This document shows, piece after piece, positions 43,291 to 47,296 of a stretch of 64,000 nucleotides of DNA (its first letter is position 1; each line of letters starts with the position of its first letter). Both the position numbers and the translations under genes were made by a program. The stretch spans positions 186,001 through 250,000 of the forward strand of contig NZ_CP009244.1 of assembly GCF_001941425.1 (NCBI RefSeq). The letters are read 5' to 3'. This stretch comes from Corynebacterium ammoniagenes DSM 20306 (lineage in GTDB: Bacteria; Actinomycetota; Actinomycetes; Mycobacteriales; Mycobacteriaceae). The notes under the pieces are model-generated. The model saw only the letters and a list, made by a program, of their open reading frames with translations, was not told where the DNA came from and did no database searches.

Positions 43291-43379
43291 GGAGACGTGC
43301 CAGAGCGGCCGAATGGGGCTCACTGCTAATGAGTTGCCCTTCCAACGGAGGGCCGGAGGTTCAAATCCTCTCGTCTCCG
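43291..43379 (+). tRNA. tRNA-Ser(GCT)
   Basis: A class-II tRNA with acceptor GGAGACG/CGTCTCC. The anticodon arm CTCACTGCTAATGAG contains GCT, a long variable arm follows, and the T arm GGAGGTTCAAATCCTC is present. Confidence 0.96.
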
Positions 43380-43386
43380 CATAGTT

Positions 43387-43421: not shown

Positions 43422-44133
43422 TCCACAGCTAGCTTGAATTCTTCGCGCCTAGCTTATTTGGGGTTGTTAGCTGTTATGCCTTTAGATGGCGCATCGCGAG
43501 CTAATGATTAAGTTAGTAGTTCTTCTTGGGCCTAGTAATGTGCTTAAACTAACCTGCGCTTTTACTAGGTCTTCAATCCGTGGCTATTACTATTCACCAA
43601 GAATTTAAGATTGGTCCTGAGAGGCGCTGTAGGGAGTGAAATGGCTCTATCGAAATGTCGCGAACATTGTTAGTTATATCTGTGGTTTTGCCGAGTAATT
43701 CACAAAACTGAATTTTCCGTAACGAACAAAGCTTGCATATCGATTGCGAGAACTCTAGTATGTGTTTATACGAAAAGTCACGTTGAATACTGATGGGCAG
43801 CTTGGGTTCAGATCTCGAAATTGCCTGTATAGTATTCACCGCCTTATTTGGGCTCAATTTTTGAAAACGTAGCCTTGCATGGGGTTTGCCCGAGAGGGCT
43901 CGTTGGTTAGCCCCATATTGGGGTGATTCGGCGTTTGGTGGAACGTCGGTCTTTTTTTCGAGCTCAGCATGTAGTTCCTAGTGAGACCAGATTTCTCGAG
44001 ATTTTGCATAGATTTCATTCTGTGAATATTGCGCGATGATTCAGCCCGATCTTGCAACTGGGGCACAAGTTAGTGAATACTTCTAGGAAAGAGTTCGTAA
44101 CGGGCGAGCTCACACTGACTGAAAGGAACAATT
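43422..44133. other. AT-richer gene-poor stretch before mini-protein gene
   Basis: No convincing gene was found in these 700 bases. Two short minus-strand frames (43594-43857 and 43854-44066) lack recognisable domains, good ribosome binding sites and coding-like codon use. The base composition is clearly less GC-rich than the flanks. The last part must carry the promoter of the mini-protein gene: TTGCAA at about 44052-44057, with AATACT 18 bases further on, is a weak candidate. Confidence 0.5.
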
Positions 44134-44253
44134 ATGTTCTCTGATATCATCACCGCTCTGGGCACCGCTTTCTCCCAGGTTGTAAACCTCGTTTCCGGCG
44201 TCTTCGGTGGCGGCTTCGACGCAATCTCCGAGCTGTCCTCCGGCCTGTTCTAA
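44134..44253 (+). CDS. 39-residue amphipathic mini-protein, possible small porin-like peptide
   Basis: A 39-codon frame encodes MFSDIITALGTAFSQVVN, then LVSGVFGGGFDAISELSSGLF, ending TAA TAA. GAAAGGA lies 7 bases before the ATG and a perfect 17-bp terminator hairpin ends the transcript. There is no signal peptide, no cysteine and only acidic charges, and the chain is helical and amphipathic. A paralogue (46032) shares the TAFxQVVxLVS core. Leaderless acidic peptides of about 40-60 residues form the PorA/PorH-type channels of the corynebacterial mycolate membrane, but no specific similarity to PorA or PorH sequences is evident. The function is inferred; a membrane-active or secreted peptide is the alternative. 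Confidence 0.8.
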   Translation: MFSDIITALGTAFSQVVNLVSGVFGGGFDAISELSSGLF

Positions 44254-44314
44254 TAAGGCTGAATCTTAGCCCCGTCTTCCTGCTTTAAGGTTGGCTTAAA
44301 GGGGCGGATTTATA

Positions 44315-44356
44315 GGCAGTGTCCCCACACCCAAGGTGTGGGGACACTGCCTTTTT
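44315..44356 (+). terminator. Strong terminator after first mini-protein
   Basis: GGCAGTGTCCCCACACC (44315-44331) and its exact complement (44335-44351) form a 17-bp stem with a 3-base loop, followed by TTTTT. Confidence 0.95.
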
Positions 44357-44376
44357 GCTTGGCTTAGACAAAGGCA

Positions 44377-44384
44377 GGGCCTAA
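44377..44384. repeat. 8-bp target-site duplication, left copy
   Basis: GGGCCTAA directly abuts the left inverted repeat of the IS element; an identical copy abuts the right end at 45764-45771. Confidence 0.9.
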
Positions 44385-45763
44385 GGGCTAAGGGAACAAA
44401 AACGTGTCTATCGGCGTGTCGGGTTAGGTGCCGATCCAGCCTTTTTGGATGCCGAGGTTGTGGCTGTATTCGGTTGAGATAGCGTTGTCGTAGAGGGCTG
44501 GTCTTCCTGTTTCTTGGTTGGCTTGGTTCTCGTTGTGGGTCGTGGCGTTTACCTTGGACAGTGCGTCACGGCCCCAATTGCATTCTTTGGCTATTTCTTG
44601 TGGGTCTTTCGGGCGATGTGTGCGCAGGTATAGCCACCAGTCGATGGTTTTGCGTTGTCGTTCACCGCTTCTTCCTCGGTGGAGTCTGGCGTGTTGTTTG
44701 AGTGGGGAGTTAAATCCGCCTTCCAGGCTGTTGGTGGTGCAGGCCCACTTAATATCGGGGTCAGCCGGATTCTGTGGTGGGTTGAGGTAGGTAAATAGCC
44801 ATTGTTTACGGTCGAGGTTTTCGAGACTGTAATAGGCTTTACGCACTCGAAGGTGGGTAAATTCTCTTTTCCCGGTGATGATCGACAAGGTCTTTTCGTT
44901 GAGGTAGTCCTTGTATGTCACATAGAAGTTGTGCAGTTGTGCCGACCATTGAGCTGCTTGGTCCAGGTCGGTAATTCGGCTGAGTGTGCGTGCCAGGCGG
45001 TAGATGTCTTGTCCGGCGTTGGTGCGTGGTTGTGAGGTGACATAGCGGCGTACGACGCGTTGGGCGTGGACGAGGCAGCGTTGGATGCGTGTGCTGGGCC
45101 AGTCTTTTTTGATGGCGCTGTAGGCACCGCGTCCACCGTCTAAGCAAACCATCAGGGGTGCGGGGATCGGTTGGAGCAGCCTGAGGTAGTCATGGGTGTT
45201 TTCTTCTTTCGCCCAAACCCAGTTGACGATGTGGTTTTTCGTGGAGGCAATTAGTAGACAACCGGCAGAGAGGTGGGTTCCGTCGATAAATAGTTGGTCG
45301 AAGATGCGGTGGGGATCGACTGGGTCTGGGGTGGGGATGTACCAGAAGGTGCGAAACCGGGTGCTGAGGTAGCGGCGTGATATTCCCATGTCACAGGCGA
45401 TGGTGTCCATGGATTGTTGGCCTGTGACATGGGTGATGAAGCGTTTAAAGTCCGCAGCGAGTCGCTTATCGCGGCGTTGTTTCGTGGTGCTAGCGCCGCA
45501 GGTTGTGGATTTACAGCGCCAGCGTTGTGTGCCTTTGGAGGTAAATCCATTGCGTTTCATCAGCTCATGGCAGACCGGGCATAGTGGATGGTTTTTCGTC
45601 ATTCCACCAGCAGATAACGGCAGGTAACACAGGTTTGGTACTGATCCCGGTATTGACCGAGATTGAGCTGTTTATAACACTGAAAAGATTACATACCTAC
45701 GCTTTATTAGAGACAACCTGGGGATATATCAGGATCCTGGACACACTTCTGTTCCCTTAGCCC
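44385..45763 (-). mobile_element. Complete IS1249-type (IS256-family) insertion sequence
   Basis: The element is 1379 bp long. The ends carry 24-bp inverted repeats (44385-44408 and 45740-45763, 21 of 24 positions identical, the outer 14 perfect). Identical 8-bp direct repeats GGGCCTAA flank both ends, the expected product of IS256-family transposition. The single transposase frame is intact. The perfect target duplication points to a recent insertion. It sits between the two paralogous mini-protein genes without breaking either. Confidence 0.95.
44424..45602 (-). CDS. IS1249-type DDE transposase
   Basis: The protein has 392 residues. The N-terminal zinc-ribbon region has CPVCHELMKRNGF and WRCKSTTCG, followed by a helix-turn-helix-like DTIACDMGISRRYLSTRF. 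The DDE catalytic residues are visible as LFIDGTHLS (first Asp), MVCLDGGRGAY (second Asp) and TTNSLEGGFNSPLK (Glu). The length and motif form fit the IS1249 branch of the IS256 family, known in corynebacteria. No frameshift or early stop is seen, so the element is potentially active. Confidence 0.95.
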   Translation of the reverse strand: MTKNHPLCPVCHELMKRNGFTSKGTQRWRCKSTTCGASTTKQRRDKRLAADFKRFITHVTGQQSMDTIACDMGISRRYLSTRFRTFWYIPTPDPVDPHRIFDQLFIDGTHLSAGCLLIASTKNHIVNWVWAKEENTHDYLRLLQPIPAPLMVCLDGGRGAYSAIKKDWPSTRIQRCLVHAQRVVRRYVTSQPRTNAGQDIYRLARTLSRITDLDQAAQWSAQLHNFYVTYKDYLNEKTLSIITGKREFTHLRVRKAYYSLENLDRKQWLFTYLNPPQNPADPDIKWACTTNSLEGGFNSPLKQHARLHRGRSGERQRKTIDWWLYLRTHRPKDPQEIAKECNWGRDALSKVNATTHNENQANQETGRPALYDNAISTEYSHNLGIQKGWIGT

Positions 45764-45771
45764 GGGCCTAA
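45764..45771. repeat. 8-bp target-site duplication, right copy
   Basis: GGGCCTAA, identical to the copy at 44377-44384, immediately outside the right inverted repeat. Confidence 0.9.
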
Positions 45772-45947
45772 GGGGGGAAGTAAGGGCAACGTAAATGAGG
45801 TGTGGTTTGCGCTTCACGGCGTAGCCGCTGGAAGTGCCAGGGATTTATTAAGTTTTGTCACCATAATTGATCTCGTTTTTGAAAAATAATCACGATAAAT
45901 CTAGTGCAAGTGCAGTCAGGTGATGATGAAGTCGAATTTCTGCATTT

Positions 45948-45975
45948 TTGCTGACGACAGTAAGTGCTATAGTAT
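45948..45975 (+). promoter_or_regulatory. Candidate promoter of second mini-protein gene
   Basis: TTGCTG (45948-45953) is followed after 16 bases by TAGTAT, overlapping TATAGT, which resembles -35 and -10 hexamers. The predicted start would give a leader of about 50 bases before ATG 46032. Confidence 0.45.
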
Positions 45976-46031
45976 GATGAATAGCTGAGCTCGCCGACTG
46001 GCTAGCTTAAATCACACGAAAGGATCTCATC

Positions 46032-46181
46032 ATGATCGAGACACTTATTGACTCTCTTGCAACCGCATTCGGCCAGGTTGTTGACCTCGTTAGCAGCTTC
46101 TTCGTTGGTCCTGACGCAGAAGGCGGCGTTTTCGGTGCTTTCAGCGACCTGTCCTCCAAGCTCTTCACCGAGGGTGAGTAA
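46032..46181 (+). CDS. 49-residue amphipathic mini-protein, paralogue of the one at 44134
   Basis: A 49-codon frame encodes MIETLIDSLATAFGQVVDLV, then SSFFVGPDAEGGVFGAF and SDLSSKLFTEGE. GAAAGGA lies 7 bases before the ATG and a 19-bp perfect hairpin follows the stop. Compared with the first copy, the N-terminal TAFxQVVxLVS block and the C-terminal FxxxSxLSSxLF block are conserved, with a longer middle (VGPDAEGG) and an acidic tail. It has no leader, cysteine or aromatic-rich region. Leaderless acidic helical chains of this size are typical of corynebacterial PorA/PorH-type outer-membrane peptides; the actual role is unproven. Confidence 0.82.
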   Translation: MIETLIDSLATAFGQVVDLVSSFFVGPDAEGGVFGAFSDLSSKLFTEGE

Positions 46182-46230
46182 TAGTCCTGCTCTCCTGATC
46201 TAAGGGCAGCCCCACGGGGCTAGAGTTTTA

Positions 46231-46276
46231 AGCGACGCTGCCGCCATCTAGAAAGATGGCGGCAGCGTCGCTTTCT
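46231..46276 (+). terminator. Very strong hairpin after second mini-protein
   Basis: AGCGACGCTGCCGCCATCT (46231-46249) and its exact complement (46254-46272) form a 19-bp stem with a 4-base loop, followed by TTTC. Confidence 0.92.
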
Positions 46277-46657: not shown

Positions 46658-47296
46658 CTAAGATCCTTGGTTCGGGAATGTTCCCTCGGTGCCGAGTTGG
46701 TTGGTGGCTTCGTCCCAGAAGAAGGTGACGGTGGCGGTGTAGTTGGGGGATTCGGCGTTGGAGCCGCCGGCATCGTCAAGCGCTTCCCAGTCTTTGTAGG
46801 TGACTACGAGGGCGTTGCCTTTGTCTTCGATGTTCATCGCTTGTTGCGGGTAGGTGGAATCAATGCCGATGTACTCGCCGTGGTGGAAGAACAGGATCTG
46901 GGTGCCGAACTGAGAGTTACCTTGGGGCCGTTGGACTAACAGTGCGTAGCTTAAATCAGCGCAGGGGTCGTAATTGCTGTCGCCTTCGTAGACCCAGGCG
47001 GTGTTGGGAGCACTTGGTGGTTCCAACGTGGAGATGGGCGCGGTGATGGCGTCGCTGGAGGGGGAGATGCCGCAATCCGCGGGAGGTGGCGTGGTTGCAG
47101 GGGGTTCTGTGGTTGCTTCGCCGTCATTGCCGGGGGCGGGGGACTCGGTGGTCTGAGGGGGTTCGTCGGCCGGGGCGGTGACGGTAGAGGTGACGGTGGT
47201 TGGGTTGGCCTCTTGGGCGGAGTCCTCAGTGCCTGAGCATGATGTCAGGGCGAGTGAGGTTAAAGCTGCGGCTATGACGGGAAGTGCGCGGCGCAT
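46658..47296 (-). CDS. LppP/LprE-type lipoprotein
   Basis: The protein has 212 residues. The signal peptide RRALPVIAAALTSLALTSC ends in a lipobox (LTSC) for lipid attachment. A low-complexity Thr/Pro/Glu linker (about residues 25-75) carries the fold away from the membrane. The C-terminal domain, from CGISPSS to the end, contains NTAWVYEGDSNYDPCADLSYALL, LFFHHGEYIGIDS and a TVTFFWD strand, resembling the LppP/LprE lipoprotein family of mycolate-containing bacteria. Two cysteines probably pair. Function is unknown; the location should be the cell envelope. Confidence 0.85.
   Translation of the reverse strand: MRRALPVIAAALTSLALTSCSGTEDSAQEANPTTVTSTVTAPADEPPQTTESPAPGNDGEATTEPPATTPPPADCGISPSSDAITAPISTLEPPSAPNTAWVYEGDSNYDPCADLSYALLVQRPQGNSQFGTQILFFHHGEYIGIDSTYPQQAMNIEDKGNALVVTYKDWEALDDAGGSNAESPNYTATVTFFWDEATNQLGTEGTFPNQGS

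Follow-up and report, generated by a model that had tools for sequence, protein, structure and literature searches.

In this work we analysed a pair of very small genes, here called A and B, in a stretch of 64,000 nucleotides (the window) from Corynebacterium ammoniagenes DSM 20306, whose genome is a single contig of 2.79 Mb. Both genes probably encode ProtX-type peptides of the mycomembrane, which would be exported without a signal sequence, mycoloylated on a serine of a C-terminal LSS block and displayed on the cell surface, where they are likely points of phage contact, and which would stand in for the protX gene of other species. This reading draws on the conservation and codon optimisation of the two genes, on a profile relation to ProtX, on the length of the purC-purB gaps and on the alignment of the LSS block with the modified serine of ProtX. 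Genomes and loci carry G and L numbers below, G000 being the genome of the window.

A and B are real genes, because copies stand at the same place in relatives and because codon choice is like that of groEL2 and the porin genes in all seven copies. The two paralogous open reading frames (ORFs) of 39 and 49 codons noticed by a first-pass annotation are indeed present (Table 1), together with the motifs TAFxQVVxLVS and SxLSSxLF said to be common to both; the peptides share 23 of 45 positions (BLASTP, E 6e-10 for that single comparison). A single-sequence search of 242 Corynebacterium genomes gave a match at E<=0.1 in five. G000, G209 and G164 hold two short-frame copies each, and the matches in G229 and G132 were set aside, as the frames that enclose them run to 269 and 450 codons. 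Profile A1 added one copy in G026 (E 3.4e-4); it matched 110 of the 242 genomes at E<=10, those other than the clade at E>=0.02 and not followed. The clade thus comprises seven copies in four of the 242 genomes, a species group which we take to be C. ammoniagenes/C. stationis/C. casei. All seven genes lie between tRNA-Ser(gct) and mgtE, the tRNA of G026 itself being outside the tRNA scan, and their frames are open and alignable from end to end, the kind of conservation which the first-pass annotation had named as a test. The serines of the LSS block are invariant in all seven peptides, and nine residues are invariant in an alignment of ten sequences.

The closest mgtE match among named genomes was 94% identical (Corynebacterium sp. 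J010B-136). Of the 125 mgtE loci from named genomes the best 80 were used, a set that includes other genera and some incomplete loci. Only L130, from a relative of G164, carries the genes; the other 79 gave neither a profile match nor an exact copy. No relevant match to A or B was found in Pfam or NCBIfam, and none to B in a PDB sequence search. A protein search with B returned four matches, near-identical or a shortened copy, and a scan of genome contigs with B alone gave 497 pattern matches, none of which was confirmed. Weak matches in long frames were set aside as chance in all searches, and three weak matches of G000 outside the window were dropped as they overlap longer open frames.

Codon choice is a stronger gene test here than the ratio of non-synonymous to synonymous substitution rates (dN/dS). 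Codon adaptation to groEL2 is 0.83 for A and 0.60 for B, next to 0.62 for porA and 0.71 for porH; seven ordinary genes from the same genome lie at 0.29-0.37. When the same peptides were re-coded synonymously, with codons drawn as in six ordinary genes, the observed value was matched in 0 of 2000 trials for A and 1 of 2000 for B. The five copies in other genomes reach 0.70-0.93; the four ordinary genes scored in those genomes, one for a DASS transporter and three mgtE, stay at 0.31-0.37. The value is highest in the coding frame for both A (0.83 vs 0.10-0.36 in the five other frames) and B (0.60 vs 0.12-0.51). The high expression suggested by the first-pass annotation is supported as probable, the evidence being codon adaptation rather than a transcript. 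Its other test, that synonymous and non-synonymous changes should not be equally frequent, had a mixed outcome: comparisons of A with A and of B with B across genomes, six in all, gave dN/dS of 0.38, 0.47, 0.63, 0.69, 0.72 and 1.1, i.e. below 1 in five, and the ratio was 0.64 for A vs B and 1.2 for A vs the G026 copy. These values come from a Nei-Gojobori script applied to genes of about 40 codons and make a weak test, whose outcome is in part adverse to the gene reading.

Both products have the character of leaderless acidic amphipathic mini-proteins, as had been claimed for them. Their net charge is -3 (A) and -7 (B), with 0 and 1 lysine or arginine residues, respectively, and the maximal helical hydrophobic moment, from which the amphipathic helix is deduced, was reached by 1 of 300 shuffled sequences for each. 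A Sec signal requires a positive N-terminus, and neither peptide has one.

ProtX, with which the first-pass annotation had suggested a comparison, appears to be the nearest relative of A and B, with a link of moderate strength. As published, ProtX is the product of cg2875 of C. glutamicum, has a mass of 3874 and is O-mycoloylated on Ser37, its penultimate residue (PMC5310785). It is described as a surface-exposed, wall-linked protein of the polar mycomembrane, and the export route of mycomembrane proteins without signal peptides as unknown (PMC12632848); phage Cog needs it for adsorption (PMC9671496). A printed primer led us to protX in G064, one of the 242 genomes, where a peptide of 38 residues was read whose computed mass of 3874.3 Da fits the paper. 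Aligned with ProtX by hhalign, the clade alignment gave a probability of 76.9% and E 2e-5 (single comparison) over 34 columns, and the match stops exactly at Ser37-Ser38 of ProtX, which correspond to the LSS serines; Ser37 aligns with the first of these in all seven clade peptides. A profile of the seven peptides scored 14.0, 11.2, 15.9, 14.1 and 7.7 bits against five ProtX peptides from purC-purB, scores reached by 0, 3, 0, 0 and 11 of about 1000 shuffles of each, as compared with 2.6 bits for the best of 207 other small ORFs preceded by a ribosome site, at most 3.1 for PorA and at most 1.3 for PorH. Identity to B in the joint alignment is 34% for ProtX and 37% for the G067 peptide. ProtX and the window peptides are alike in being leaderless, acidic and amphipathic, in the F..V..LV.. 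core and the C-terminal serine pair, and in a ribosome site of the GAAAG type that follows a leader stem. They differ in that ProtX is encoded by a single gene between purC and purB and its 38 residues end at the serine pair, whereas A and B are a paralogous pair at tRNA-Ser-mgtE with a tail after LSS.

Several results weigh against this assignment. A profile built from ProtX only gave 1.9 bits for A (reached by 180 of 990 own shuffles) and 0.2 bits for B (384 of 961), and G209_B (208 of 992) and G164_B (123 of 984) did no better, although G164_A (4 of 995), G026 (2 of 967) and G209_A (11 of 988) stand out over their shuffles. As this ProtX-only profile does poorly with four of the seven clade peptides, A and B included, the relation is supported through the relatives in the clade and not by direct comparison of A or B. 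BLASTP found no match between the G026 peptide and ProtX; three residues follow the serine pair in A and seven in B, while ProtX ends there; and an amphipathic composition could arise by convergence. Among profile matches outside the training set the serine pair was not enriched (8 of 33 vs a base rate of 93 in 376). A crude look upstream of the genes, limited to GTAAC, GGAAC and GTCAC as presumed sigma-D motifs, recognised no sigma-D site, and a sigma-A-like pair is present instead. ProtX belongs to the sigma-D regulon (PMC11175481).

The purC-purB gap measures about 75, 55, 105 and 150 bp in G000, G209, G164 and G026, respectively, as opposed to about 730 bp in C. glutamicum, and none of the four has a ProtX-type ORF listed at this site. 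With the gap of about 75 bp in G000, and with the pair placed at tRNA-Ser-mgtE, A and B are not the positional orthologue of protX. Gaps too short for a protX gene, and tRNA-mgtE genes in the same four genomes, fit an exchange of surface peptides, in which the pair would take the place of the purC-purB gene of other species. Such a loss is not special to the clade, because G121, G067 and G068 likewise have no ProtX-type ORF at purC-purB and carry theirs elsewhere.

If A and B are ProtX-type peptides, they would be made in large amounts as signal-less, acidic, amphipathic helical mini-proteins and would leave the cell by the still unknown route that ProtX, PorA and PorH use. A protein mycoloyltransferase (Cmt1/MytC) would then esterify mycolic acid onto a serine of the invariant LSS block, and the peptides would be displayed in the outer mycomembrane, fixed to the wall as ProtX is. 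There they may act as surface or coat proteins or as small oligomeric membrane proteins, and we infer by analogy with ProtX that phage contact would likely take place at them.

The first-pass annotation also raised membership of the PorA/PorH family, which we reject. The PorH (84 residues) and PorA (42 residues) of this genome are encoded between groEL2, confirmed by a family scan, and ppk2, an arrangement described for the genus (PMC3792995, PMC5944148). They score 91.9 bits against the NCBIfam PorH model and 48.5 bits, just below the cut-off of 50, against the PorA model. PorH- and PorA-like ORFs (71-98 and 41-42 residues) adjoin ppk2 in all four clade genomes; groEL2 was read only in G000, being beyond the stretches read in the three relatives. 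A and B lie at another locus and gave no match to either model even at E 10, and profile comparison of the clade with the PorA and PorH groups gave 0.8 and 0.4 percent. In spite of shared features (small size, acidic amphipathic leaderless peptides, high codon adaptation) no sequence relation to A and B is detectable. These findings bear also on the idea that A and B form a second two-component pore, a hetero-oligomeric mycomembrane channel like PorA/PorH. Their size is that of PorA, they form a tandem pair of leaderless acidic amphipathic peptides with the same codon adaptation as porA and porH, a leader stem precedes porH as well, a lone 40-residue PorA of C. jeikeium forms pores (PMC3792995) and ProtX itself was proposed as a possible porin (PMC9671496). 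We nevertheless regard such a pore as unlikely, and slightly more so once the resident PorH and PorA were seen to match their models while A and B do not; moreover, one of the four clade genomes has a single gene.

Secreted membrane-active peptides acting on other cells (surfactants, leaderless bacteriocins or modulin-like peptides) would share the size, the missing signal, the amphipathic helix and the tandem paralogues. A and B, with their net negative charge and almost complete lack of basic residues, differ from cationic leaderless bacteriocins; no Pfam or NCBIfam match links A and B to such families, and among those neighbours that family scans covered and named (transposase, lipoprotein, mgtE, DASS transporter) there is no ABC exporter, so that we judge this role improbable. 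Less probable still are inner-membrane peptides resembling type I toxins, or regulatory membrane micropeptides of another kind, for which small duplicated hydrophobic ORFs with their own signals might be taken: the codon use of highly expressed genes in all seven copies would be odd for a toxin, and A and B are nearly devoid of lysine and arginine. Strong leader and trailer hairpins, the former conserved, together with two dN/dS values close to or above 1, could be explained by spurious ORFs over a structured RNA, yet residues are kept across paralogues and species and codon adaptation peaks in the coding frame of both genes, which leaves this explanation with hardly any credibility.

ProtX-type ORFs whose C-terminal part holds a serine pair were read in 23 of the 242 genomes at several sites (Table 1). 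The searches behind this wider set used ProtX (51 of 242 genomes at E<=1), profile A5 (78 at E<=0.3) and profile A7 (57 at E<=0.05); many matches lie in long frames, and only part were read for ribosome site and start (G176, G081 and G174, for example, are unread). Among the matches to ProtX, G127 was dropped after its DNA was read, and G067 and G075 were kept. The serine pair is terminal in all eight complete purC-purB peptides, and a ninth case, in G205, is cut by the contig end beside purB. Another group stands beside the arabinan-synthesis gene dprE1 (loci L061, L062, L064, L065 and L066), which is the best NCBIfam match for the neighbours in G068, G212, G121, G043 and G075, four of the five pieces being incomplete and under the curated cut-off; the assignment in G084 rests on the same N-terminal sequence, and the G075 peptide has no serine pair. 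The dprE1-side peptides, e.g. one of 45 residues in C. halotolerans and tandem copies of 38 residues in C. occultum, resemble A and B in the GAAAGG site, the missing leader and the serine pair near the C-terminus, and differ in chromosomal place and in an identity to B of 20-27%; the named ones are annotated as 'hypothetical protein'. Twelve more genomes hold similar leaderless ORFs of 29-47 residues, mostly without the pair and several of them arrayed, which are candidates for homology only. Since no enrichment was seen in the pool test, the serine pair does not define the wider set, and the enrichment in a hand-picked table of peptides (31 of 32), from which G205, the second type and a G121 copy with the same protein sequence were omitted, was rejected as circular.

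That second type, seen at L113, L114, L115 and L117 (G162, G163), L112 (G065), L111 (G083) and L237 (G057), comprises leaderless amphipathic ORFs of 29-39 residues beginning MIETIQ, MIDIIS or MTDIAT. They are often clustered and preceded by GAAAGG-like sites, and most lack the serine pair. At L119 (G098:C3:101000-103000, 149-1564) there is a tandem array of four leaderless ORFs (35, 35, 54 and 35 residues), each with LSS in its C-terminal half.

In a sample of 401 genomes from 31 genera of the family, ten gave a match at E<=0.01, short-frame matches occurring only in Corynebacterium; three matches outside the genus were rejected as lying inside frames of 365-520 codons. A protein search with alignment A7 returned 34 proteins, and all 12 named ones are a 'hypothetical protein' of a Corynebacterium. 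We found no published description of ProtX relatives at other loci among the papers listed, subscription journals being mostly absent from them. Tentatively, and with more doubt than confidence, these ORFs may be seen as a genus-wide, poorly annotated repertoire of leaderless surface micropeptides of 29-54 residues, placed at several sites and often in tandem, that would diversify fast and be swapped between lineages under phage pressure as mycolate-anchored phage receptors, the window pair being the version of one lineage.

The GAAAGGA ribosome sites reported by the first-pass annotation stand before each ATG and are invariant in the seven clade leaders. Directly ahead of them a stem of about 8 pairs occurs in all seven, with 90.3% of cells paired vs 24-42% when the partner strand was slid; a covariation signal was not above shuffles in these leaders. 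The five ProtX genes nearest C. glutamicum (L055, L057-L060) have a common stem of about 7 pairs before the ribosome site, porH (L046) likewise has one, and the protX leaders of G041 and G045 fold differently. The stem is possibly an mRNA-stabilising feature common to abundant mycomembrane peptides. A promoter-like pair TTGCNN-18 nt-(A/C)ATACT lies about 58-92 nt upstream of six of the seven clade genes, window B being the exception; it was chosen by eye without a chance control, and that of A was not called by a generic promoter scan (3 promoter-like sites called vs 2.2 expected). Perfect terminator hairpins of 17 and 19 bp had been described after the genes. Strong hairpins are present after both, of 18 pairs after A (-38.3 kcal/mol, z -7.75) and 20 pairs after B (-43.6 kcal/mol, z -10.82), with 0 of 200 shuffles as good in either case; the terminator scan called only that of A, which has a proper T run, while that of B ends in CTTTCTGC. 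With 5 sites called in the stretch vs 3.8 expected, the call alone means little. The hairpin after A is a clear terminator; the one after B could serve either as a weak terminator or to stabilise the 3' end.

The pair is flanked on the left by tRNA-Ser(gct) (43291-43380) and on the right by an LppP/LprE-type lipoprotein gene (46658-47296, minus strand), followed by mgtE and a DASS transporter gene. In the ORF lists the lipoprotein gene is whole in the window (212 residues) and seemingly in two frames in G209 (L013 8778-9416) and G164 (L014 7314-7868). Between A and B lies an IS1249-family element with matching ends GGGCTAAGGGAACA and an 8-bp target duplication, which leaves both genes whole; a second, 100% identical copy is found at G000:438471-439849. 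G209 and G164 have no ORF of at least 120 residues between the paired genes, so this genome is probably alone in carrying the insertion.

Table 1. Features of the A-B region in window coordinates, and sites of ProtX-type ORFs in Corynebacterium genomes
Feature	Position or site	Strand	Basis, remarks or genomes
Promoter-like pair TTGCAA - 18 nt - AATACT upstream of A	44052..44081	+	picked by eye
5' leader hairpin of A	44091..44111	+	stem folding; just upstream of ribosome site
Ribosome site GAAAGGA of A	44121..44127	+	sequence
Gene A	44134-44253	+	ATG start, 39 residues, leaderless acidic peptide, no lysine or arginine, LSS block
Terminator hairpin of A, with T run	44314..44352	+	folding and terminator scan
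Left copy of 8-bp target duplication GGGCCTAA	44377..44384	+	sequence
IS1249-family element between A and B	44385..45763	-	transposase 44424-45602 (-)
Right copy of target duplication GGGCCTAA	45764..45771	+	sequence
5' leader hairpin of B, one mismatch	45988..46007	+	stem folding
Ribosome site GAAAGGA of B	46018..46024	+	sequence
Gene B	46032-46181	+	ATG start, 49 residues, leaderless acidic peptide, paralogue of A
20-bp hairpin after B, poor T run	46230..46273	+	folding
ProtX-type with serine pair	tRNA-mgtE		G000, G209, G164, G026
ProtX-type with serine pair	purC-purB, both flanks confirmed (tblastn)		G064, G033, G037, G214, G022, G045, G041, G056
ProtX-type with serine pair	beside dprE1		G068, G212, G121 (three copies), G043, G084
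ProtX-type with serine pair	other sites		G067, G077, G053, G098, G233, G025
Similar ORFs, mostly without pair			G162, G163, G065, G083, G049, G080, G044, G036, G157, G057, G046, G131

Few signal-less mycomembrane proteins are known, and the natural variants collected here, many with a serine pair close to the C-terminal end, offer material for working out the recognition rules of the mycoloyltransferase and of the exporter. An arms race driven by phages would fit the way in which these peptides change in site, copy number and sequence, and the peptide family gives a way to ask whether phage pressure drives this turnover. The results suggest that probably abundant envelope proteins of corynebacteria have been overlooked or left nameless in annotation.

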